Shown here piece by piece: positions 5,940 through 22,104 of a stretch of 25,765 nt of DNA. The position numbers and the translations under genes are program-made. Position 1 is the stretch's first letter, and the number at the start of each line of letters is the position of its first letter. The notes beneath the pieces were generated by a model. The model saw only the letters and a program-made list of their open reading frames with translations, was not told the DNA's origin and did no database searches. Source of the DNA: a virus; IMG/VR virus record IMGVR_UViG_3300036398_000653, positions 1 through 25,765 of that record; one strand, given 5' to 3'.

Positions 5940-7973
5940 CTAATATAACTTAATCTCACAAGCATCTGTAGAACAATATTTTTCTGACTCAGCATCAAGG
6001 TTATCATTGCCATCATAAATAGCAGACCAATCAATTTTGCCAATCTTTCCTACATATGAGTTATATTCTTCTCTTGTGATTTCTGTATAAGGTTGCTGTG
6101 GATAAACCTTATCTCCCATTGGTAGGAAGGATACTGCCTTTAACTGTCCCTCATACATGTTTAAGGCAGGAGCAATAAATTTCTTCTCATTTTCTTTGTC
6201 AAATGACAGAGTTACAGAAACACCATTATCTGACCAATACTTCTGGGCTGTTGCTGCCAAACCAATCTTTTCAAATAAACTTACCTGCTTCTCAGAACGC
6301 TTATGTCCTGATGCAACTGGGAAATAAACTACTTGTGTGTTTGCTGATACAAGGTCTGGTTCAACTTTATATCCCGCTGCTTTAAACAGGTGAAGCATTG
6401 GATCAGTATCGCCAAAGCGAATAGCACGAAGATAAAATTCTCCTCCAGGACCCCAGTGAACTCCAGGGGTAGCGCCAGAAAGCAATGACACAGATCCTGA
6501 TGGCTTAACGGTGGTTACACGAACGGACTCACGAACACATAGCCATTCTGAATATGAGTGATCATATTGACGAATTGTGTTGTATCCTTCATCCATCCAT
6601 TCACGGGTTGTCGGCAATCCGTGCTCATCAGCAAAGGCTGCAATGCCTGTAAGTGATGTGCCAATACGACGATTTCTTTGCATGATACCGTTTGTCTGTT
6701 GCCAATGTGTTGGCATAAGAGTTACAGTCTTTCCATAAAGATAAGCAAACTTTAACGTTTTTAGGAAATCTTCTTTAGAGTCATGACGATTTAAATGTAC
6801 CTCTACAAGAGTACAAAGTTCATATGATTCCAATGGCTGCTCTGCACAAGGATTGAAGCCCATGATACGAGCATCTTTATAGTCTGGAGCATCTGCAAGA
6901 CGACCGTAATCTCTAGCAACACCAAGCCAGATAAAACCTGGCTCTCCATTGTCTGCAATTAAATCTACATAGTCTTCATATTTTGTTCCAACCTTAGCAG
7001 CAATTGAGTTATTGCTCATCCATGCCCAACCTGGCTTTTCTGGATCATATGAATTTCTTTCTGGAAACACTTCTGGATTCTTAAGATTAATAAAACCACT
7101 ATCTTCTGGTGTACCAAGTGCAAGGGTAGCAGAACGACGAACATTTCCAGAAACAACGCAAGTACCAATAAGATTTACAATATCTACAATAGCACGGCTA
7201 TCAAGTAGTTCTCCCGCTCTAGAGCCTACGACATTACGAATGCGGGTATGCAGATCAATAAGTGGTGCTGGACCGCTAGCAACCCCTCCAAAGCCCTTAA
7301 TGGGTGCTCCTAGAGGACGGATTAGGTCATAATTAAACTCCTGTACCGCTTGATTTTGACGAAGAAATGAGTTGATCAAAAGACGAACAGACTCTACCCA
7401 GCCTTCACGGGTATCAGGGATTTCATAGACTGAGGCTGGCTCTGAAGGTGCATAAATAGACATTTGCTTGTCTTGTCCAAGGGTGTCAAATCCTACACCA
7501 ATACCAAGCATAAGAGCATCCATAACCCATGCAAATAGGGCACCTGGATCATTACGATCAATGTCACGAGTAGAAACCATTGCACAGTTTTGGAGGGATG
7601 CTGAGTTACGCTTCTCCATAGTCATAGGTGTACCAAATGCCCAGAGACCACGGCCTGGGGGGGTCCACTTTAACTCAAACATTCTTTGAAATGCTTCTTG
7701 AGCGGACTTCTGAGCCTTGTTGTCATTCCACGGAAGTCGATTATCTTTAGCGTGGTTTTTCTGTACTGAATACATGCCCTCAATTACACGACGACAAACT
7801 TCATGCCAGCGTTCCTTTGTTCCGTCCTCTTTAACACGGGAATAGGTACGAATAAACGTAATCTCTCCAAGTGAGTTAGAGCCTGCATCTGAGAATCCAA
7901 ATGGTGCTGGAATCAGTTGATATTTATTAACAAAATCTTCTGATAGACGAAATGAAAATACGCTTTCTGACAT
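5940..7973 (-). CDS. nrdJ: Adenosylcobalamin-dependent ribonucleoside-triphosphate reductase (class II)
   Basis: A 677-residue monomeric class II reductase that converts ribonucleotides to deoxyribonucleotides for phage DNA synthesis, using coenzyme B12 to make the radical. The key residues are present with the same spacing as the Lactobacillus leichmannii enzyme: C130 (redox pair), then C376, E378 and C387 in NPCAEQPLESYELC, matching C408/E410/C419, and C387 as the pair partner of C130. The C-terminal shuttle pair is C667 and C672 (YCSTDACEIKLY). Other hallmarks are GIGVGFDTLG (157-166) and VKPSGSVSLLSGATPGVHWG (489-508). It appears intact, without an intein. The start at 7973 has AAAGG about 11 bases upstream; its mRNA would begin with a hairpin near 8027. 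An unusual position, between virion genes rather than among replication genes. Confidence 0.95.
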   Translation of the reverse strand: MSESVFSFRLSEDFVNKYQLIPAPFGFSDAGSNSLGEITFIRTYSRVKEDGTKERWHEVCRRVIEGMYSVQKNHAKDNRLPWNDNKAQKSAQEAFQRMFELKWTPPGRGLWAFGTPMTMEKRNSASLQNCAMVSTRDIDRNDPGALFAWVMDALMLGIGVGFDTLGQDKQMSIYAPSEPASVYEIPDTREGWVESVRLLINSFLRQNQAVQEFNYDLIRPLGAPIKGFGGVASGPAPLIDLHTRIRNVVGSRAGELLDSRAIVDIVNLIGTCVVSGNVRRSATLALGTPEDSGFINLKNPEVFPERNSYDPEKPGWAWMSNNSIAAKVGTKYEDYVDLIADNGEPGFIWLGVARDYGRLADAPDYKDARIMGFNPCAEQPLESYELCTLVEVHLNRHDSKEDFLKTLKFAYLYGKTVTLMPTHWQQTNGIMQRNRRIGTSLTGIAAFADEHGLPTTREWMDEGYNTIRQYDHSYSEWLCVRESVRVTTVKPSGSVSLLSGATPGVHWGPGGEFYLRAIRFGDTDPMLHLFKAAGYKVEPDLVSANTQVVYFPVASGHKRSEKQVSLFEKIGLAATAQKYWSDNGVSVTLSFDKENEKKFIAPALNMYEGQLKAVSFLPMGDKVYPQQPYTEITREEYNSYVGKIGKIDWSAIYDGNDNLDAESEKYCSTDACEIKLY

Positions 7974-8150: not shown

Positions 8151-8990
8151 TTAAAAATCTTTCCCTTTAACTTTCATCAAAGAGTTATCTCTCCAAAATT
8201 CCATATTAGAGTACTTGTGTTTAATGTAGTCAGAAAGAATGTCTACTGATGTTGACGATATTGACAAAGACTCTCTAACATCGTGCAAGTTCTCAGGATA
8301 GCCAAGATCTATATCGTTATCTAACTCTATCTTTTTTATGTTATTAAAGTCATGTTTATATTCTGGTAACTCTAAAAATTTATAGATACCAGACATTGTT
8401 TCTTGTGGTTTTAATACAAGATCATTGTATTCAACAATATGAAAAATATCCTTGTTTTCTAGATAGAATGCGGATGCAACAGAAACTAGTGCTCTGTCTA
8501 TATCCCCATTTATTTGCATAAGATATTCACATATACAGTCTTCATCAGAACGATAAATATTAACAAAAGCATTATTACTTATAACGTCATTTCTTAAACG
8601 ATCAGAATCCAGTTTAATAAATGAAGCAAGAATTTCTAAAATATCACGAACTGTGACTATAATCTTAGGACTTTTTGTAATATATTTTTTTATTAAATCA
8701 AGATTTCCTGGCATTCCCCAGTCTTTTTGCCTATCAACTATTATAGGCTTTTCTACATTTTTATAAAATGTATCAAAGAAAGAATAAAGTAGTTCTGACC
8801 CTCTGTCCTTATTTTCTTCATTTCGTTTTATACTATTTAAATAATTATACGACTTAGAATACTCCCACATCAAATCAAGAAGTGGGCTGAGTGGTGTGCT
8901 ATAAATATTTGGATTTTGATTTAATATTGCTGATAATAGTGTATTTCCACTTCTTGGTAAACCCGCTAAAAAATAATAAGTTTTTTTCAT
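8151..8990 (-). CDS. Sulfotransferase-family protein
   Basis: A 279-residue cytosolic protein of the P-loop sulfotransferase superfamily, which moves sulfate from PAPS to an acceptor hydroxyl or amine. The 5'-phosphosulfate loop is GLPRSGNT at residues 10-17, directly after a hydrophobic strand, and the 3'-phosphate motif is VTVRDILEILASF at 112-124. Length and layout fit bacterial and phage members. The acceptor cannot be told from sequence; host surface glycans or phage fibre components are possible. The ATG at 8990 lies six bases below a TGATATACT box with only Ts between, so the transcript should be leaderless. The gene is a single-gene unit, with its own promoter and an intrinsic terminator, sitting between adhesin genes and nrdJ. 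It is more AT-rich by eye than the fibre genes, consistent with separate acquisition. Confidence 0.85.
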   Translation of the reverse strand: MKKTYYFLAGLPRSGNTLLSAILNQNPNIYSTPLSPLLDLMWEYSKSYNYLNSIKRNEENKDRGSELLYSFFDTFYKNVEKPIIVDRQKDWGMPGNLDLIKKYITKSPKIIVTVRDILEILASFIKLDSDRLRNDVISNNAFVNIYRSDEDCICEYLMQINGDIDRALVSVASAFYLENKDIFHIVEYNDLVLKPQETMSGIYKFLELPEYKHDFNNIKKIELDNDIDLGYPENLHDVRESLSISSTSVDILSDYIKHKYSNMEFWRDNSLMKVKGKDF

Positions 8991-15384: not shown

Positions 15385-15800
15385 TATGCAGTTACATCCT
15401 CTAAGACTGTCACCTTACCCTGAGCAACGGTCCAAACAATAGCGTCTGAAGGAAGAGATAGTTCAATGTCAAAAATATCATTTGTTTGAAGACTAGCAGT
15501 TTGTGCTGCTGTTAGAGAAACTGTAAACTCTCCATCTTCATCATCAGCATCTGCTGCAGGTGTTAATGTGTATATAAGTGTTGCAGTGTCTGTTATCTGA
15601 CCAGGGACAACTGGGCTTGTTGTTGGTCTTTTAATCTGCATAGATATTGTCCAGTCAGGTATGTTTAATGGCTGACGAGCATCATCTGTTACGTATACCC
15701 GAAATGCTGCGGTATCACCTTTTACAAATGTCCAATTAACAAATGGTGGGGCCTCTCCAATGTCATATGTTCCAGAACCACTACCTCTATAAGTTGCCAT
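15384..15800 (-). CDS. GDT beta-domain protein, copy 1 (BppU-like N-terminal fold)
   Basis: A 138-residue protein built mainly of predicted beta strands. After FVNWTFVKGDTAAFRVYVTD (21-40) comes IPDWTISMQIKRP, the pattern of BppU-type N-terminal domains that attach receptor-binding proteins to the baseplate. The end reads VAQGKVTVLEDVTA. Two distant relatives lie at 19835-20179 and 21031-21435. I use the ATG at 15800, not one 30 bases upstream, because it shares a base with the preceding stop codon (TAATG), as several neighbours do. The longer version would add ten residues that look unrelated. The BppU assignment is tentative. Confidence 0.75.
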   Translation of the reverse strand: MATYRGSGSGTYDIGEAPPFVNWTFVKGDTAAFRVYVTDDARQPLNIPDWTISMQIKRPTTSPVVPGQITDTATLIYTLTPAADADDEDGEFTVSLTAAQTASLQTNDIFDIELSLPSDAIVWTVAQGKVTVLEDVTA

Positions 15801-16330
15801 TACGATAACCCTGCTTTCAATGATCCCCAAGTTCCGTTACCCTTTGGCTGACCCACAAGAATAATTCCACTTGATGCGTTTTTCTTTAAAACAATTCCTA
15901 CTGCTCCAGAACCTGTAACTGGAATTGTCGCTGTTAATCCACCACCATTAGCAACATATAATTTATTACCAACATTGTAAGCGTTAGTATTAATATTTGA
16001 AAATACACCAGACAATAAAACAACTCCATCGGAACTGTTTGATATTGCTGTTGTTGCTAGTCCTACTACTGGAAATGTTGATAAGTCATCAGAGTCACAT
16101 TTTGTAACTGCAGGTTTAGATGTTCCATACCCTGAAATATAAACTGGATCACCTTTAGCAATAGAGGATCCACTATTATTTGTTACTTCAAGTGTGTGGT
16201 ATGCGGGACCAATGGTTCCTAATAAAGACTCAACAGTTTCAGCCAATGACTGAATATCCTCGTGAACATTTACTGGATCACTGGATAGTGGATAAGGTAT
16301 ATCATAGTTTGTTGTTGAACCTGTAGCCAT
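15800..16330 (-). CDS. Fibre-associated protein with repeated strand motif
   Basis: A 176-residue protein. The first 40 residues (NYDIPYPLSSDPVNVHEDIQ...) form the N-terminal motif common in phage appendage proteins. The rest is a beta domain with KGDPVYISGYG, FPVVGLATT, GVVLLSGVFSNI and GNKLYVANGGGLT, a family I know from structural genes of many phages. Start: an ATG at 16342 also exists, but it overlaps the TATAAT of the promoter at 16341-16349, so it could not be on the transcript; the ATG at 16330 is ten bases below that box. The gene heads a unit that runs leftward, back-to-back with the plus-strand lysozyme-like gene. Confidence 0.75.
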   Translation of the reverse strand: MATGSTTNYDIPYPLSSDPVNVHEDIQSLAETVESLLGTIGPAYHTLEVTNNSGSSIAKGDPVYISGYGTSKPAVTKCDSDDLSTFPVVGLATTAISNSSDGVVLLSGVFSNINTNAYNVGNKLYVANGGGLTATIPVTGSGAVGIVLKKNASSGIILVGQPKGNGTWGSLKAGLS

Positions 16331-16340
16331 AGTATTTACC

Positions 16341-16349
16341 ATTATACCA
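16341..16349 (-). promoter_or_regulatory. Extended -10 promoter (TGGTATAAT)
   Basis: Minus-strand box ten bases before the ATG at 16330. It faces away from the lysozyme promoter at 16395-16425, so about 45 bases hold two divergent starts. Confidence 0.65.
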
Positions 16350-16394: not shown

Positions 16395-16425
16395 TTGGAC
16401 TTTTGGGGCAAAAACATGTTATACT
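16395..16425 (+). promoter_or_regulatory. Promoter of the lysozyme-like gene (TTGGAC / TGTTATACT)
   Basis: TTGGAC at 16395-16400, a 19-base spacer, then TATACT at 16420-16425 with the extended TG at 16417-16418. It is a plus-strand member of the same promoter class, but with a leader of about 45 bases. Confidence 0.65.
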
Positions 16426-16434
16426 TGGTAGTAA

Positions 16435-16460
16435 CACCAGATAACTGGTGCTTTTGTTTC
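16435..16460 (+). terminator. Terminator-like hairpin in the lysozyme leader
   Basis: CACCAG, loop ATAA, CTGGTG, then CTTTTGTTTC. This six-base-pair stem with a T-rich tail lies between the promoter and the AGGAGG at 16462-16467. It could act as a terminator, an attenuator or a 5' stabiliser. The tail is interrupted by G and C, so termination would be partial. Confidence 0.45.
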
Positions 16461-16475
16461 TAGGAGGTTTATTTG

Positions 16476-17048
16476 ATGAGAAGAGACAAGAAGGCTTGGA
16501 TTGGAATCCTATCATTAGTTGGATTACTAGCACCTATAAGTAATTCTGCTAACGCAATATCTAATACAACTGAAAATAATTTATTGAGTAATAAGTCCGT
16601 GACTGCCCCTGCCGACCCTAAGTCGGCCTTTTTGGTTTCTAAGCCAAAAAAAGTTTCAGTTTTGGCAAAGTATAAAAATGCTTCGTCTTTAACAGATTAC
16701 GAACTCGTTGAATTATTGAAGGCTGTAGGCTTTACTGGAAAGGGTCTAAAGACTGCTTGGGCTGTAGCCAAGGCAGAATCAAACGGAAGACCTTTTGCAT
16801 TTAATGGAAATGCTAAGACTGGAGACAGTTCTTACGGGGTATTCCAAATAAATATGATCGGAATCTTGGGACCTGATCGTAGAGAAAAATTTGACCTAAA
16901 CGCTAACGCTGAGTTATTTAACCCAGTAAAAAATGCAAAAATTGCATTCCACATGACCAAGGGTGGAACAGACTGGAAGTCTTGGAAATATGCTAAAACT
17001 GCCCCTGTACAGAGATGGTTAAAGAAATTTCCACATGAGCACCTATAA
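16476..17048 (+). CDS. Secreted lysozyme-like (transglycosylase-type) cell wall hydrolase
   Basis: A 190-residue protein that should cut peptidoglycan. Residues 1-27 form a signal peptide: basic MRRDKK, hydrophobic WIGILSLVGLLA, and an Ala-x-Ala site (SNSANA). A linker of about 45 residues follows. The lysozyme-like domain covers about 75-180, with the likely catalytic E101 in AVAKAESNGRP and the GVFQIN motif at 121-126. Similar domains occur in actinobacterial proteins and their phages. The start is ATG 16476, eight bases after AGGAGG; a TTG three bases upstream is not needed. It is the only plus-strand gene within the fibre block and has its own promoter and terminator. It could be the phage endolysin using host secretion, or a virion or superinfection-exclusion enzyme. 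Confidence 0.85.
   Translation: MRRDKKAWIGILSLVGLLAPISNSANAISNTTENNLLSNKSVTAPADPKSAFLVSKPKKVSVLAKYKNASSLTDYELVELLKAVGFTGKGLKTAWAVAKAESNGRPFAFNGNAKTGDSSYGVFQINMIGILGPDRREKFDLNANAELFNPVKNAKIAFHMTKGGTDWKSWKYAKTAPVQRWLKKFPHEHL
16611..16633 (+). terminator. Terminator-like hairpin inside the lysozyme coding region
   Basis: GCCGAC, loop CCTAA, GTCGGC, then CTTTTT: a GC-rich six-base-pair perfect stem with a T run, about 135 bases into the gene and in the codons of the linker after the signal peptide. On the minus strand there is no T tail, so any effect would be on the lysozyme transcript. It may be chance, but it stands out in AT-rich DNA. Confidence 0.45.
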
Positions 17049-17062
17049 CGATTAAAGTAAAG

Positions 17063-17100
17063 AACCCCATTGGATTTCTCCTTTGGGGTTTTTTATTTTA
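17063..17100. terminator. Terminator between convergent lysozyme and MAH genes
   Basis: Stem AACCCCA (17063-17069) with TGGGGTT (17084-17090), then TTTTATTTTA: a clear intrinsic terminator for the plus-strand lysozyme gene. Read on the minus strand, the same stem is followed by CTTTACTTTA, so it may also stop leftward transcription from the adhesin genes. Confidence 0.85.
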
Positions 17101-17135
17101 TTTTGTATTTACTAGAGGATAAACACTTTTATTAT

Positions 17136-17435
17136 TTATTCAGTAATGCTTAGAGAATGTTCAGAGTTAGGGCATTCCCAATTGCAAGTTATCTCATCTA
17201 ACTGTGCCTCTTCATGACATTTAGGAGGTATAAAAGCATCAAGATCTTCACGATACTCCATACCTATACCTGCATATCTAACTCTAAAGTTATTATTGTA
17301 TGATGTTTTTATCCAACGACCGCCAATGTTGTCTATAAGCCATTGGTAACCTTCATCACCGTTAGGGTCATTATTATCACCAACAGTTACACGAAGTACA
17401 ATGTTGTTATCATCAAGTTCTGCCCAATGTGCCAT
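17136..17435 (-). CDS. Small MAH-type fibre-associated protein, copy 2
   Basis: A 99-residue paralogue of the protein at 9065-9412. It begins MAHWAELDDNNIVLRVTVGD and keeps GGRWIKTSYNNNFRVRYAGI in the centre. This version is closer to the common cyanophage form. The usual C-terminal half with WxWxPP and YxWDEE motifs is replaced by a short Cys-containing tail (CHEEAQLDEITCNWECPNSE). The four cysteines (about residues 75, 85, 89 and nearby) are unusual for phage fibre genes. It overlaps the upstream glycine-rich gene by one base (TAATG), the same arrangement as copy 1. Function unknown; linked to the adhesin by context. Confidence 0.8.
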   Translation of the reverse strand: MAHWAELDDNNIVLRVTVGDNNDPNGDEGYQWLIDNIGGRWIKTSYNNNFRVRYAGIGMEYREDLDAFIPPKCHEEAQLDEITCNWECPNSEHSLSITE

Positions 17436-18502
17436 TATCCACCAACCGATGCTCTTGTATAACGGACAATAACAATTCCGCTAGATCCAGCAAATCCATC
17501 ACCAGCATTACTGCCTGAGTATCTTGCTGTAGTAATAGACCCACCTGCTCCACCGTCTCCAGTGTTACCGCCTCGATTACCACCACCAATTCCATAAGTG
17601 GTTCCGATACTAAATATATTTACGCCAGAGTTACCAGCAGTTCCAGGTGTAGTACCACTACCGCCACCTGCTCCTGGGTATCCAGCAGTTCCATTACCAC
17701 CTTGTGATCCTGTACCACCAGATCCTGTTGCAGATCCGTCATTGCCAGGTCCATATTGGTTATTCCATTGACCGCCAGCACCACCGCCACAACCTCCGCC
17801 ACCACCATTGCCACCAGCCTTGTCTCCGCCATGTCCACCGCCTGTTGCACTTAGACTAAAACCAGTTGTTGGATTTCCGCTACCTGGGCCGCTGCCTCCC
17901 TGAACTGGGGCACTTCCACCGCCACCAATTGTAATGTTATATGTTCCAGAAAGTGTTTGAGCATTAGCATTTCTGTATCCGCCAGCGCCACCATTGCCAC
18001 CTTGAAATGCTTGACCATATCCAGTTCCATTATCAAAATTAGAAAAGAAACTCCAGTTACCAGCACCGCCACCTCCGATAAGAGCGTAATCGGCTACTAC
18101 AGATCCATTGGTTACTGAAAGAGATCCATTTGATGTAAATGTTCTATAATAATAAGTTGAATCTGAAGTCAAGGTTCCGCCAGTGACTACTGGTGGATTT
18201 ATAGGGGTAACCGAATTACTTGCTGCAGATGAGTCTGAGGCTGCCCCATAGTTTGTTGTTCCAAAAACTGAAAAAGTATAAGCGGTACCATTTGATAATC
18301 CAGAAACCGTGATTGGGGAGCCTGATCCTGTTCCTGTAAAAGAACCTGGAGAAGAAGTTGCTGTATAAGAAATTGTGCCCTTACCAATGTAAGAAGAAGA
18401 GGTAAAGTTTACAGTAGCCTGTGCATTTCCTGAAGATGCTGACCCAATTACAGGAGAACTAGGTTTTTTACCACCAGAACTATTATTTCCAATTATTGGC
18501 AT
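17435..18502 (-). CDS. Fibronectin type III plus glycine-rich adhesin-like protein, copy 2
   Basis: A 355-residue protein starting MPIIGNNSSGGKKPSSPVIG. Residues about 13-101 form a fibronectin type III domain, with ITVSGLSNGTAYTFSVFGTT typical of its later strands. A strand ADYALIGGGGAGN (138-149) leads into about 200 Gly-rich residues and an end SSGIVIVRYTR. It shares the MPxxG start, the GGGG entry and the SG(L/I)VxxR(F/Y) exit with the adhesin at 9412-10260 but adds the FN3 domain. Glycine-rich domains of this kind are found in phage receptor-binding tips. It is preceded and followed by TAATG overlaps. Off-frame open frames inside it are repeats read in the wrong frame. Confidence 0.8.
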   Translation of the reverse strand: MPIIGNNSSGGKKPSSPVIGSASSGNAQATVNFTSSSYIGKGTISYTATSSPGSFTGTGSGSPITVSGLSNGTAYTFSVFGTTNYGAASDSSAASNSVTPINPPVVTGGTLTSDSTYYYRTFTSNGSLSVTNGSVVADYALIGGGGAGNWSFFSNFDNGTGYGQAFQGGNGGAGGYRNANAQTLSGTYNITIGGGGSAPVQGGSGPGSGNPTTGFSLSATGGGHGGDKAGGNGGGGGCGGGAGGQWNNQYGPGNDGSATGSGGTGSQGGNGTAGYPGAGGGSGTTPGTAGNSGVNIFSIGTTYGIGGGNRGGNTGDGGAGGSITTARYSGSNAGDGFAGSSGIVIVRYTRASVGG

Positions 18503-19227
18503 TAGGCACTCAAATCACCGACAAGAACCCAAGTATTTGTGTCACGTTTAATTAACGTGGCAGATGACCATTGTGTTCGTAACTTTAAACCAGGGGTAGC
18601 ATTAATTGTTACACCACCAGTAGCGACGACAGTCGTTTGTCCAAGGCCTGTTTGAAGTATATTTATTTGGGCACCAATTGGATAGGCAACAGATGAATTT
18701 AATGGCACAGTAAAGGTATTGCTAGAACCATTGTTCATTTCAACTAATTTTCCATTATCTGCAAGTACTGCAGTATAGGTAGTTCCAGTTTGTGCATTAA
18801 TTGAAAGATTAATAATTGGAGCAGTTAATGTTTTGTTAGTTAGAGTGTTAGTGCTAGAAGCAGTTACCTCTGGAGTTGCCCACTCAAGACCAGTTGCTGT
18901 TGCACTGTTTGCTGTAAGAACCCTTCCATTTGAACCTACCGTCAAAACAGATAAAGTGTTATCTGCTGAGGCAGACAATAAATCTCCCTTAGCATTAAAA
19001 CTTGTTTCCTGGATTGCAGTTCCTCCTGACAAGGAGTCAATCTGATCCTGAAGGTCATTTATTGTATATGCTATAGATGGATTTACTAATTCTGCTGGAT
19101 CTGTTTCTGCTGTATCAAATGTATATGAACCATAATGGTATACACGTAGTGCAGCCTGAATATCTGCTTGGTCTGAAAGACCTGGAATTTTTGTAGGTAC
19201 TAAACTACCAATTGATTCTGCTGCCAT
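18502..19227 (-). CDS. Medium-length tail-fibre protein
   Basis: A 241-residue fibre. The N-terminal 45 residues (MAAESIGSLVPTKIPGLSDQ, then AALRVYHYGSYTFD) are the attachment pattern seen in aquatic phage fibres. A GDLLSASADNTLSVLTVG module (about 80-97) resembles one in fibre 2, followed by [13 protein letters not shown]. The C-terminal half (LADNGKLVEMNNGSSNTFTV...LIKRDTNTWVLVGDLSA) is a widespread C-terminal fibre domain. GAGGTG before the ATG serves as ribosome-binding site, 17 bases below a TGGTATAAT box. Its stop overlaps the start of the FN3/glycine-rich gene (TAATG). A receptor-binding or linker fibre is likely. Confidence 0.8.
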   Translation of the reverse strand: MAAESIGSLVPTKIPGLSDQADIQAALRVYHYGSYTFDTAETDPAELVNPSIAYTINDLQDQIDSLSGGTAIQETSFNAKGDLLSASADNTLSVLTVGSNGRVLTANSATATGLEWATPEVTASSTNTLTNKTLTAPIINLSINAQTGTTYTAVLADNGKLVEMNNGSSNTFTVPLNSSVAYPIGAQINILQTGLGQTTVVATGGVTINATPGLKLRTQWSSATLIKRDTNTWVLVGDLSA

Positions 19228-19244
19228 ATTTTCACCTCATCAAG

Positions 19245-19253
19245 ATTATACCA
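19245..19253 (-). promoter_or_regulatory. Extended -10 promoter (TGGTATAAT) of the 18502-19227 fibre
   Basis: Starts three bases after the stop codon of the upstream gene at 19257. The leader of about ten bases contains GAGGTG. Confidence 0.65.
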
Positions 19254-19256
19254 TAA

Positions 19257-19835
19257 TTAGATAACTACAGTTATAAACAGATGTACCGTTACCTCTCCTG
19301 TTAGGTTAGACCAAGCGCTGCTTGCATACCTTGCTGCATTAAGATTGACTACTAAGTTTGTTCCAGATCCTGCAAGTGCGGGTATCTCAACCGAAGAAGC
19401 AATTGGAGCAGTATTTTCAATACTATACTGAACATTAAAGTTAGATGCTGTAAGAGGAGTTCCAGAAACTGTAACTATGTTGGCTATAGGAATAGATATT
19501 GATGCTTCTCCTGAAGCAAATGTTACTGTATGTCTTTTTGAATAGAGTGTTGGAGAAATTCTTAAAACTTGTGTCCAAGTATTTCCACCAGTTTCAGAAA
19601 TGTATTGATAAAGATATCCATAGTTTGCTCCAGGTGCTGAGTTGATATACATATCATATAGATTAATTGTTTCACTAAAAATAGCACCGTTTGTTGTTAG
19701 AGAATTTGGTTCTCCAGTTCCAACAAAAAATTTACTACCACGTTGTCCTGTTGGACCAATATCAACTAACAGTTCTACTACTTCTGGTGGCCCAAGAACA
19801 GTAATATCATCATTTGATAGCAAAACATCTGGCAT
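19257..19835 (-). CDS. Virion surface-type protein with short collagen-like segment
   Basis: A 192-residue protein starting MPDVLLSNDDITVLGPPEVV, followed by VDIGPTGQRGSKFFVGTGEP, a short collagen-like GPTGQRG motif leading into a beta domain. The motif YDMYINSAPGANYGYLYQYI (about 60-79) is typical of a family common in aquatic phage structural regions. The last third (FASGEASISIPIANIVTVSG onward) is a separate beta domain of unknown role. It overlaps the upstream GDT-domain gene by one base (TAATG). Probably part of the same appendage as its neighbours. Confidence 0.75.
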   Translation of the reverse strand: MPDVLLSNDDITVLGPPEVVELLVDIGPTGQRGSKFFVGTGEPNSLTTNGAIFSETINLYDMYINSAPGANYGYLYQYISETGGNTWTQVLRISPTLYSKRHTVTFASGEASISIPIANIVTVSGTPLTASNFNVQYSIENTAPIASSVEIPALAGSGTNLVVNLNAARYASSAWSNLTGEVTVHLFITVVI

Positions 19836-20179
19836 TATACTGCTCCAGAAATATCGTCTGTTACAGTAATTGTTCCAGTTAGAAGTGTATAAATCTCAAT
19901 ACCATTTTCAATTTCAACATCGTATACGTATGTTCCTGGTTCTAGATCTCTACCAACAGTTGGAGTAATTGTGCAGGTAACTATGTCAGAAATCTCATTA
20001 ACAACAGCATTAGCAGTGTATTGAGTTCCTTGGGGACCTCTCTGATTAGCAATTGTAAAACTGGCATTATAGTCTGTTAGTTCAAATGAAGATCCATCAT
20101 TTGCATTTTTAGGACGGGCTACAAACTCAGCAGTGTCACCACGGTAATAGTTAAAATCATAAGTACTTGGAAAAGCCAT
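19835..20179 (-). CDS. GDT beta-domain protein, copy 2 (BppU-like)
   Basis: A 114-residue protein: FNYYRGDTAEFVARPKNAND (9-28), then a strand pattern DYNASFTIANQRGP and an end LLTGTITVTDDISGAV. It is a distant relative of the proteins at 15384-15800 and 21031-21435. Two ATG codons sit in a row at 20182 and 20179; I chose the second because AGGAGG is six bases before it but only three before the first. The box TGGTATAAT is 17 bases upstream of the chosen start. A domain joining fibres to the baseplate is plausible but not shown. Confidence 0.75.
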   Translation of the reverse strand: MAFPSTYDFNYYRGDTAEFVARPKNANDGSSFELTDYNASFTIANQRGPQGTQYTANAVVNEISDIVTCTITPTVGRDLEPGTYVYDVEIENGIEIYTLLTGTITVTDDISGAV

Positions 20180-20196
20180 CATTATCCTCCTAGTTC

Positions 20197-20205
20197 ATTA
20201 TACCA
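20197..20205 (-). promoter_or_regulatory. Extended -10 promoter (TGGTATAAT) of GDT protein copy 2
   Basis: Begins immediately after the stop codon of the collagen-like gene (20206-20208) and is followed by a short leader with AGGAGG. Confidence 0.65.
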
Positions 20206-20940
20206 TTAAGAAATTGATATATATATACCCTTTAAGATAATGGTAGATTCATTATCTGTTCTTGCTTGAATTATGCCACCTTCTGATCTAATTTTAGATA
20301 TGTCGACATACAGGGTTTGGTTAACAGACATTTCATATGGATACTTATACTTTAGCATTCCTATATATGCTGTTGGGGATTCTACTTTTGGAATAAAGGT
20401 TCTAATCCAGGCCTCTGTATTATTTACATCAGTAGTTAAAACAATGTCGTACCTTATATCTATTTTGGCACCAATTTTTAATTGTTTAAAATTAATTCTT
20501 TGAGTTACTGGATTCCACAAAGATACAGAATTTGCTGGAAGAAACCTTAATATGCTGGAGTCTTCATCATCTTTCATAGTAATATTAACCCATCCATCAT
20601 CACCCCTGGTGGGGCCAAGAAGAATCAATCTCTTATCTTTATTTTCATAATAAGCCCAACCTGGATACTGTCCTGATGGAGAATCATAGCCTTGTGCTCC
20701 CCTGCCAGGCTCTCCCCGCTCTCCTTTAGGTCCTGCCTTGCCTTCTTCGCCCCTTGGTCCTTGAGGGCCTGTATCACCCTTCTCACCTTTGTCGCCCTTA
20801 TCACCTTTAGGGCCTACTTCTCCCTTTTCCCCTTGAATTCCAGGTACGGCGACATACTCAACATTGCCCTGATTACTTCCTTGGTTAGATTTTATTGCCT
20901 CTGAATATTTTGGCTTAGGAAAATCCATACTCTTTGCCAT
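20206..20940 (-). CDS. Collagen-like fibre protein
   Basis: A 244-residue protein with sixteen unbroken G-X-Y triplets at residues 34-81 (GIQGEKGEVGPKGDKGDKGE onward). Six of the sixteen Y positions are Lys and only one is Pro. The N-terminal 33 residues contain the attachment sequence, and the C-terminal 150 residues form an unassigned beta domain (YYENKDKRLILLGP..., IVLTTDVNNTEAWIRTFIPK) that probably trimerises or binds a receptor. Collagen-like stalks are frequent in phage fibres. The ATG follows the stop of a 29-residue gene by one base (TAAGATG) and there is no strong ribosome-binding site, so translation is likely coupled. Confidence 0.8.
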   Translation of the reverse strand: MAKSMDFPKPKYSEAIKSNQGSNQGNVEYVAVPGIQGEKGEVGPKGDKGDKGEKGDTGPQGPRGEEGKAGPKGERGEPGRGAQGYDSPSGQYPGWAYYENKDKRLILLGPTRGDDGWVNITMKDDEDSSILRFLPANSVSLWNPVTQRINFKQLKIGAKIDIRYDIVLTTDVNNTEAWIRTFIPKVESPTAYIGMLKYKYPYEMSVNQTLYVDISKIRSEGGIIQARTDNESTIILKGIYISIS

Positions 20941-21570: not shown

Positions 21571-22104
21571 TTATTCAAAAAAATTTAAATTAACTACGCA
21601 TCTTGAAATATCCGTTGAACTGGTTCCAGTGTGCAGGAGGTCTGAATCAAATATTAGCAACCTATTTTCTACAGACTCTACTGTTGGACCATCTTTAAAA
21701 AGTGTCAGTCCATCATTTGTATTGACGTAGTAGACTGCTGTTTTTAAATTTTTAGGAGTATTTGGAAGATCTGTATGATATCCGTAAATTATTTTTTTAG
21801 GTGTTGGGGGGGTTAGATTTGATTTTATTCTTACAAGCGCTTTAGGGTTAATTATTTCTAGCATTGGAGAAAAAAGTTCAAAACAGTAATTTGATTGAGG
21901 ATACATATTACCATAAAATGTATGAGTAAACTGAAAATTATACTTTGACCCATCCTCACCATCTTCAAATAAAACATTTTCAGTTTTTGAAACTTTGTTG
22001 TCATTATAAAACCATGGGAACATATCTGACATTAATGTATTTTTTATTTCATTAAACTCTGCCTTTGGCAAAAAGTTATCAATTACTTTATAGTTTATTT
22101 CCAT
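21571..22104 (-). CDS. 2-oxoglutarate/Fe(II)-dependent oxygenase
   Basis: A 177-residue enzyme of the 2OG-Fe(II) oxygenase superfamily, which hydroxylates proteins, nucleic acids or small molecules. The iron ligands are H110 and D112 (GYHTDLPN) and H158 (LLHTGTSS); R168 in ISRCVVNLNF is the likely 2-oxoglutarate anchor. The N-terminal half (VIDNFLPKAEFNEIKNTLMS) is the common start of cyanophage oxygenases. The substrate is not evident; a collagen-like phage protein lies 630 bases away, which is discussed as a finding. The ATG is six bases below TGATATACT, so the mRNA is probably leaderless. The stop codon sits in the stem of an 18-base element repeated at 24539-24556. Confidence 0.85.
   Translation of the reverse strand: MEINYKVIDNFLPKAEFNEIKNTLMSDMFPWFYNDNKVSKTENVLFEDGEDGSKYNFQFTHTFYGNMYPQSNYCFELFSPMLEIINPKALVRIKSNLTPPTPKKIIYGYHTDLPNTPKNLKTAVYYVNTNDGLTLFKDGPTVESVENRLLIFDSDLLHTGTSSTDISRCVVNLNFFE

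Follow-up and report, generated by a model that had tools for sequence, protein, structure and literature searches.

What might two hairpins do between the promoter of a phage lysozyme gene and its catalytic domain? The question is raised by the window, the whole stretch of 25,765 nucleotides of viral DNA analysed here (IMG/VR record IMGVR_UViG_3300036398_000653). A sequence-only reading took its lysozyme gene for a self-contained moron inserted backwards, and proposed that two terminator-like hairpins could stop transcription early unless an antitermination event or a coupled ribosome lets it pass.

Taken as a single sequence, the window lends neither hairpin more weight than chance: it holds 3 terminator-like sites in 4 kb where 3.0 are expected, and 13 promoter-like sites where 11.5 are expected. 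It is the comparison with relatives that lifts both hairpins above this level. A first set of relatives was gathered through the lysozyme gene itself and is biased towards its presence; for unbiased sampling, a second set was collected through the conserved divergent neighbour on the left (minus strand, 15800 to 16342), which has a weak match to a head decoration PHROG. Pooled, 360 loci gave 358 matches. Of these, 17 lacked a start, had too short an upstream sequence or were cut at the end, and were set aside; the 341 usable matches comprise 172 different sequences, and 169 if the coding part is compared.

A lysozyme gene at a constant locus

The gene (plus strand, 16476 to 17048) has two candidate starts, TTG at 16473 and ATG at 16476, of which close relatives keep the ATG, and a stop at 17048. 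Its product consists of a leader judged by eye to be signal-peptide-like, a low-confidence linker, and a domain matching Pfam SLT_3 (PF18896; 62.5 bits against a curated cut-off of 27, residues 81-170). E101 in the active-site motif, which we take to be the catalytic glutamate of this lysozyme-like domain, is invariant in 12 of 12 aligned proteins. An AlphaFold model (12 relatives; mean pLDDT 66.8) places a helical domain past residue 57, the first 55 residues being of low confidence. The closest solved folds, those of c-type lysozymes, score weakly: E is about 3e-3 and TM, by query length, about 0.43. Searches against PHROGs and NCBIfam returned no match. Distant homologues are encoded by the Streptomyces tectivirus WheeHeim (31% identity) and the Prochlorococcus phage P-SCSP1d (36%), and a coarse scan of the matched part of both detected no hairpin of the linker type. 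When genome contigs were scanned with query A1 for a host or prophage copy, two weak Riflebacteria matches and nothing close came up.

In mycobacteriophage Ms6 an internal start reportedly gives a short enzyme devoid of its signal (PMC3111421). A comparable internal start was looked for by eye in the present gene and seems unlikely; the codons at the invariant L63 are variable.

The expression signals described in the sequence-only reading can all be read directly: an extended -10, a Shine-Dalgarno AGGAGG (plus strand, 16462 to 16467) that is kept in relatives, and a GC-rich terminator-like hairpin AACCCC...GGGGTT with a T run behind the gene (plus strand, 17063 to 17104). A terminator-like hairpin within 110 nt past the stop recurs in 58 of 75 representatives. 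The lysozyme gene was also said to be the only plus-strand gene in most of the window, and this holds from 1 to about 23,450 for long ORFs that do not lie over a longer minus-strand ORF. Likewise, a scan by strand of two large relatives places it as a reversed gene within a long opposite-strand block, whose transcript would be antisense to the lysozyme if it runs through.

Is the gene then a moron? It does have its own promoter and terminator and an orientation against its neighbours. The moron trait of being present or absent among relatives at one site was looked for in the sample drawn through the left neighbour. There the lysozyme gene adjoins that neighbour divergently, at the same place and in the same orientation, in 78 of 80 loci, and the other two had just 160 nt of room. 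A constant place and orientation among relatives is an outcome that the sequence-only reading had itself named as refuting. The spacing between both genes is 123-161 nt in 76 loci and 1,733 nt in L315 and L316. Furthermore, SLT_3 is matched exactly once in every one of 10 large related records of 60-108 kb, in keeping with a single copy at a core location. On these two results inserted cargo is rejected, and the picture of a moron inserted backwards is not supported.

The same large records were searched for other wall enzymes and for an integrase. Amidase_2 has no match in 10 of them, Peptidase_M23 none in 8, and NLPC_P60 none over the cut-off in 8, with two weak matches below it; calling the lysozyme the only wall enzyme refers to these tested families. 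Since the divergent locus is constant, the SLT_3 match single and these other enzyme families are without such matches, we regard the gene as core to these phages; its lysozyme is presumably exported and is probably the endolysin. An integrase was matched in 0 of the 10 large records, which makes a role in protecting a lysogen less likely.

The two sides of the gene differ in their constancy. The left side is conserved, and the right flank (17136 to 20940 in the window; L002-L081) varies by relative, with sulfotransferases and unrelated ORFs; the lysozyme gene marks the edge of a variable cargo region. Among the structural genes of the window there are matches to a B12-dependent ribonucleotide reductase, a sulfotransferase, a collagen-like protein and, weakly, a 2OG-Fe(II) oxygenase (5940-7973, 8151-8990, 20206-20940 and 21571-22104). 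The portal protein is closest to those of Streptomyces phages, at 45% identity.

A hairpin written in the codons of the linker

The hairpin GCCGAC-CCTAA-GTCGGC (plus strand, 16611 to 16627) lies inside the reading frame at codons 42-52, just past the signal-like leader, a position that is nearly fixed. With a score of at least 14 it is found in all 169 of the distinct coding sequences, never shifted by more than one codon in the alignment, and the runner-up position elsewhere in the gene reaches at most 70% of them. Shuffling synonymous codons within the gene (100 shuffles) keeps the hairpin in 27.6% of sequences on average and 34.3% at most.

Could such a hairpin simply be the echo of a repetitive A-x-x-K-x-A motif spelled with biased codons, and have no regulatory role at all? 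The motif A-x-x-K-x-A-F/L does recur in the protein alignment. Against this explanation, about 72% of the draws lose the hairpin when synonymous codons are shuffled, and amino acids change in pairs that preserve the stem. The 52 distinct 30-mers covering the element include stems of the kinds GCCGAC/GTCGGC, GCCACC/GGTGGC, GCCGCC/GGCGGC or AGCGGC, ACCGCT/GGCGGT and others, and the changes alter the amino acids on both arms jointly (D..S, T..V, A..A, V..A). In three of the 30-mers (L038, L049, L358) the stem has even been re-formed one codon out of register, as GCCCC/GGGGC. On these comparisons the explanation is strongly disfavoured and hardly credible. The sequence-only reading had named stem conservation as the check to be made, and the check comes out in favour of the linker hairpin: its stem is kept even where the protein linker changes, by paired codon changes on both arms.

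The strength of this pairing was counted on 49 of the 52 distinct 30-mers, the three re-registered ones being left out. Paired cells amount to 95.6%, where shuffles give 85.9%, and covariation scores 0.347, where they give 0.159; neither value was reached in any of 500 shuffles. Two further counts, of pairs with a two-sided change (reached in 113 of 500 shuffles) and of further pair types (340 of 500), do not exceed the shuffles. Registers slid by 1-3 columns pair in 19-57%. A tree of 77 representatives, built with the linker omitted, has weak resolution (of its 74 inner branches 11 are starred), and the counts of changes taken from it are rough. With five re-registered rows set aside, 72 representatives remain. 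Among these, at least 9 changes on this weakly resolved tree turn the pair at columns 4-14 from G-C to A-T or back, and no representative has it unpaired. At the pair adjoining the loop, 14 of the 72 have C-A. Departures at the three variable outer pairs read, on the sense strand, G-T in four cases (pair 1-17) and T-G in one (pair 5-13), and never A-C. Together with the fixed one-sided tail described below, these G-T departures favour a role as RNA of the plus strand.

Predictions that start from the sequences alone agree with this picture. Given no structure, RNAalifold folds 40 of the 77 representatives into eight pairs forming two helices within the first 210 nt or so, which are the two hairpins under discussion. 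Long-range pairing between leader and linker, also looked for by eye, does not appear in this prediction. A scan of 851 nt against Rfam gave five matches up to E=1, none of them near the gathering score and none on either hairpin.

A frozen tail and its terminator score

Behind the stem follows a U-rich tail of frozen codons, CTTTTTGGTTTCT (plus strand, 16628 to 16640). Its phenylalanine is TTT in 62 of 62 cases, where family usage predicts about 78%, and its serine TCT in 69 of 69, where about 33% are predicted. The leucine ends in G in 67 of 67, TTG and CTG together making up 27% of the leucine codons of the family. Upstream, the first stem codon is equally fixed, as alanine GCC in 68 of 68. 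The four tail codons have a T content of 0.695 versus 0.597 under a synonymous null (sd 0.009, maximum 0.617 of 100 draws); tails with CTG fall short of the maximum that synonymous codons would allow. All 169 elements carry 5-6 T within the first 8 nt past the stem and thus combine a GC-rich hairpin with a U-rich tract.

How terminator-like is this element? The score d, whose formula reportedly stems from d'Aubenton Carafa's work, is above zero in 139 of 169 linker elements versus 4.4% of shuffles, and zero or below in 30. The window's own copy is outside the positive group at d = -19.0, because its tail begins with C. Two large relatives were scanned for such sites, neither of them the window's own genome, which is represented by 25.8 kb. 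In the 105.9 kb relative no sense-strand intragenic site other than the linker element has d>0, and three intergenic ones do; the 107.7 kb relative has two other intragenic and two intergenic sites of this kind.

A hairpin right after an export signal may also be thought of as acting on the ribosome. It would slow translation once the signal has left the tunnel, so that targeting comes first and synthesis of the catalytic domain second, and the U-rich tail would be a by-product of hydrophobic codons. The nearly fixed position in 169 sequences and the retention of the hairpin within the translated region suit such pausing. What it does not call for is a tail frozen beyond the needs of the protein (TTT, G-ending leucine, TCT) or a T content above the synonymous null, and we consider it unlikely.

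Some features of this region deserve mention in their own right. A programmed -1 frameshift at the T run was considered and rejected, as the slippery heptamer is not conserved; the heptamers among the 52 distinct 30-mers include TTTTTTG, TTTTCTG, TCTTTTG, TTTTGTT and others. In the window's clade the U tail has another potential partner in an A-rich stretch behind it, and the alternative hairpin would be TTTTTGGTT-TCTA-AGCCAAAAA (16629 to 16650 in the window). Upstream of the linker hairpin, leucine codon 36 (counted from TTG 16473; about 16581-16583) is TTA in 72 of 77 representatives, and TTA accounts for 29% of leucine codons across the lysozyme gene family.

A stem-loop at the predicted 5' end

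The promoter is of the host type (plus strand, 16395 to 16425), with a -35-like TTGGAC (16395-16400) and an extended -10 TGTTATACT (16417-16425). The -35-like element reads TTGACT in many relatives, and the -35/-10 pattern is kept across representatives; the spacer sequence differs among clades and has no element common to all. From the position of the -10, transcription is predicted to start at 16432 on the plus strand, 7 nt past the hexamer. The leader hairpin CACCAG-ATAA-CTGGTG (plus strand, 16435 to 16450) is located at the predicted 5' end of the RNA.

This location is general. In the first set the stem starts after 2-9 nt past the -10 hexamer in 65 of 65 distinct leaders; among 120 distinct 75-nt leaders it starts at nt 3-10, most often at nt 7, in all 120, the 5' end being a predicted one, and 108 of them beat dinucleotide shuffles at p<0.05. 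The stems belong to several unrelated kinds of sequence and evolve fast by two-sided changes. If arms are swapped between leaders (64 of 65 used, own arms pairing by construction), 50.8% of the cells pair. Such a stem is also rare at other promoters: among the 104 and 102 extended -10 sites of two large relatives, it accompanies only the lysozyme promoter and one other in each.

Several clades show peculiarities around this promoter. L060, L099, L144 and relatives have a third half-site (GGTGT, GGTGC or AGTGC) just upstream of the predicted start, which matches the first arm of the leader stem in the manner of a DNA operator or an alternative fold. L060, L087, L131 and relatives have TATTATAGCAC about 35-45 nt upstream of the -10, which on the opposite strand is an extended -10, TGCTATAAT, for the divergent neighbour. 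Leaders appear to be exchanged among close relatives, L034 combining linker codons like those of L032 with a leader like that of L011.

As a terminator the leader hairpin does not qualify, for its d is negative in 65 of 65 distinct leaders, and of the two terminator-like hairpins originally proposed this one has to be dropped. Because of these negative scores and its place at the predicted start, it is better read as a 5'-terminal stem-loop, which might protect the 5' end.

Protection of RNA ends can be extended to the whole arrangement. Both hairpins could serve the stability or processing of the mRNA, shielding ends or guiding a nuclease, and the second would then show where the RNA is processed or where an intermediate of its decay has its 3' end, and not where transcription terminates. 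The leader stem, at the predicted start in all distinct leaders, resembles 5'-terminal stabilising stem-loops (such as those named among the references of PMC3997798). The one-sided U-rich tail of the linker hairpin is left unexplained, and as an account of both elements this seems to us improbable. A different thought is that the inverted repeats act at the DNA level, binding a regulator once at the transcript start and once in the gene. The leader repeats do overlap the predicted start, some clades add the half-site just upstream, and leader types are swapped between close relatives. Sense-strand departures in the outer linker pairs that are G-T or T-G, never A-C, are what RNA predicts, and the linker hairpin has its tail on one side; in this regard the case of the leader hairpin stands less firmly than that of the linker. 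A DNA-level site for both repeats is very improbable.

A proposed attenuator within the enzyme's own frame

We lean towards reading the linker element as an attenuator within the open reading frame, readthrough of which would give the full-length lysozyme of a core phage gene. Transcripts would leave the host-type promoter with a stem-loop at their front and would soon meet an intrinsic terminator built of codons, some 123-156 nt past the start codon, between export signal and catalytic domain. RNA polymerase stopping at the hairpin and its U-rich tail would release an RNA of about 196 nt that is unable to encode the enzyme. A full-length mRNA would arise only if the hairpin is kept from folding, either by a ribosome close behind the polymerase or by an antitermination factor, and the output of a lethal enzyme would thereby be tied to efficient translation or to the phase of infection, presumably with the timing of lysis as its purpose. 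The early stop envisaged in the sequence-only reading is the best reading for the linker hairpin, but not for the leader hairpin, which is not terminator-like by score.

The numbers are compatible with such a switch. Across 77 representatives the predicted short RNA measures 188-206 nt, with a median of 196 and the two hairpins marking its predicted ends, and the 3' arm of the linker hairpin has a median local pairing probability of 0.998 (minimum 0.36). The -35/-10 spacer varies, so that no Q-type binding element common to the family can be seen in it; a Q-type antiterminator element between -35 and -10 may be specific to a clade.

A bolder variant turns the relation between the two transcripts around. 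The locus could be a dual-purpose RNA gene that chiefly makes a discrete and stable RNA, about 196 nt long, with a conserved 5' hairpin and a 3' terminator written in codons, and whose lysozyme is the product of readthrough. Lytic phages would in this way carry a lambda-like late switch inside the ORF of the lysis enzyme. The short RNA would then have a task of its own; it could deliver a truncated export-signal peptide or act on the overlapping transcript of the other strand. We put this forward tentatively, as a possible but doubtful extension of attenuation within the frame.

When transcription terminates early inside coding sequence, this usually counts as a mishap that genes have to avoid. 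In the present family of large phages, which is known from environmental DNA, a terminator-like element made of codons is retained by two-sided changes even at a cost in amino acids, and its conservation suggests that production of the enzyme depends on passing a built-in brake. If this is true, the output of a lysis enzyme is controlled from within its own frame, and the locus would offer a natural test case for the coupling of translation and transcription in phage-infected cells. The hairpins predict exact RNA ends, near +1 and near +196.

Comparison with known systems

Examples of attenuation, of intragenic terminators and of 5' stem-loops have been described before. The present case differs in that the terminator-like element lies in the ORF of a phage lysis enzyme and is maintained there by two-sided changes. 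A literature search found no description of one; most subscription journals lay outside its coverage, and absence is not proven.

In phage lambda, an intrinsic terminator, tR', stands a short distance past the late promoter pR' and ahead of the lysis enzyme, so that a short RNA is made by default and Q antitermination is needed to go further. The present locus resembles pR'/tR' and the systems of AlpA/Q-type antiterminators (PMC9371919) in the order of a promoter, soon a putative intrinsic terminator, and then the lysis enzyme, and it would likewise yield a short RNA by default. Unlike in these systems, the terminator-like element lies inside the ORF of the enzyme and is built of codons, the -35/-10 spacer holds no element shared by all clades, and no antiterminator gene has been identified.

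A promoter with two outputs is also found in the Gifsy-1 prophage, where IsrK represents a short terminated RNA next to a readthrough mRNA from one phage promoter (PMC4825925). IsrK acts in trans in a prophage, whereas the short form predicted here falls within the lysozyme ORF and has no known action in trans. The leader hairpin, in turn, has its likeness in the 5'-terminal stabilising stem-loops of ompA, papA and aprE (named among the references of PMC3997798), which sit at the extreme 5' end, followed by a ribosome-binding site. Unlike in those cases, the 5' position is deduced from the promoter alone, and the stem evolves fast and has several unrelated sequences.

A parallel for the linker element is ribosome-controlled attenuation in Escherichia coli. 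There a ribosome stalled upstream of an intrinsic terminator increased termination (PMC5021804); the systems studied were a reporter for pyrL and, inside the coding regions of rsxC and narY, terminators picked by prediction. As in that system, a hairpin followed by a U tract would be free to fold unless a ribosome follows closely. The pyrL element is a leader and the rsxC and narY sites are predicted ones, whereas the element described here is fixed by two-sided changes across a whole gene family.
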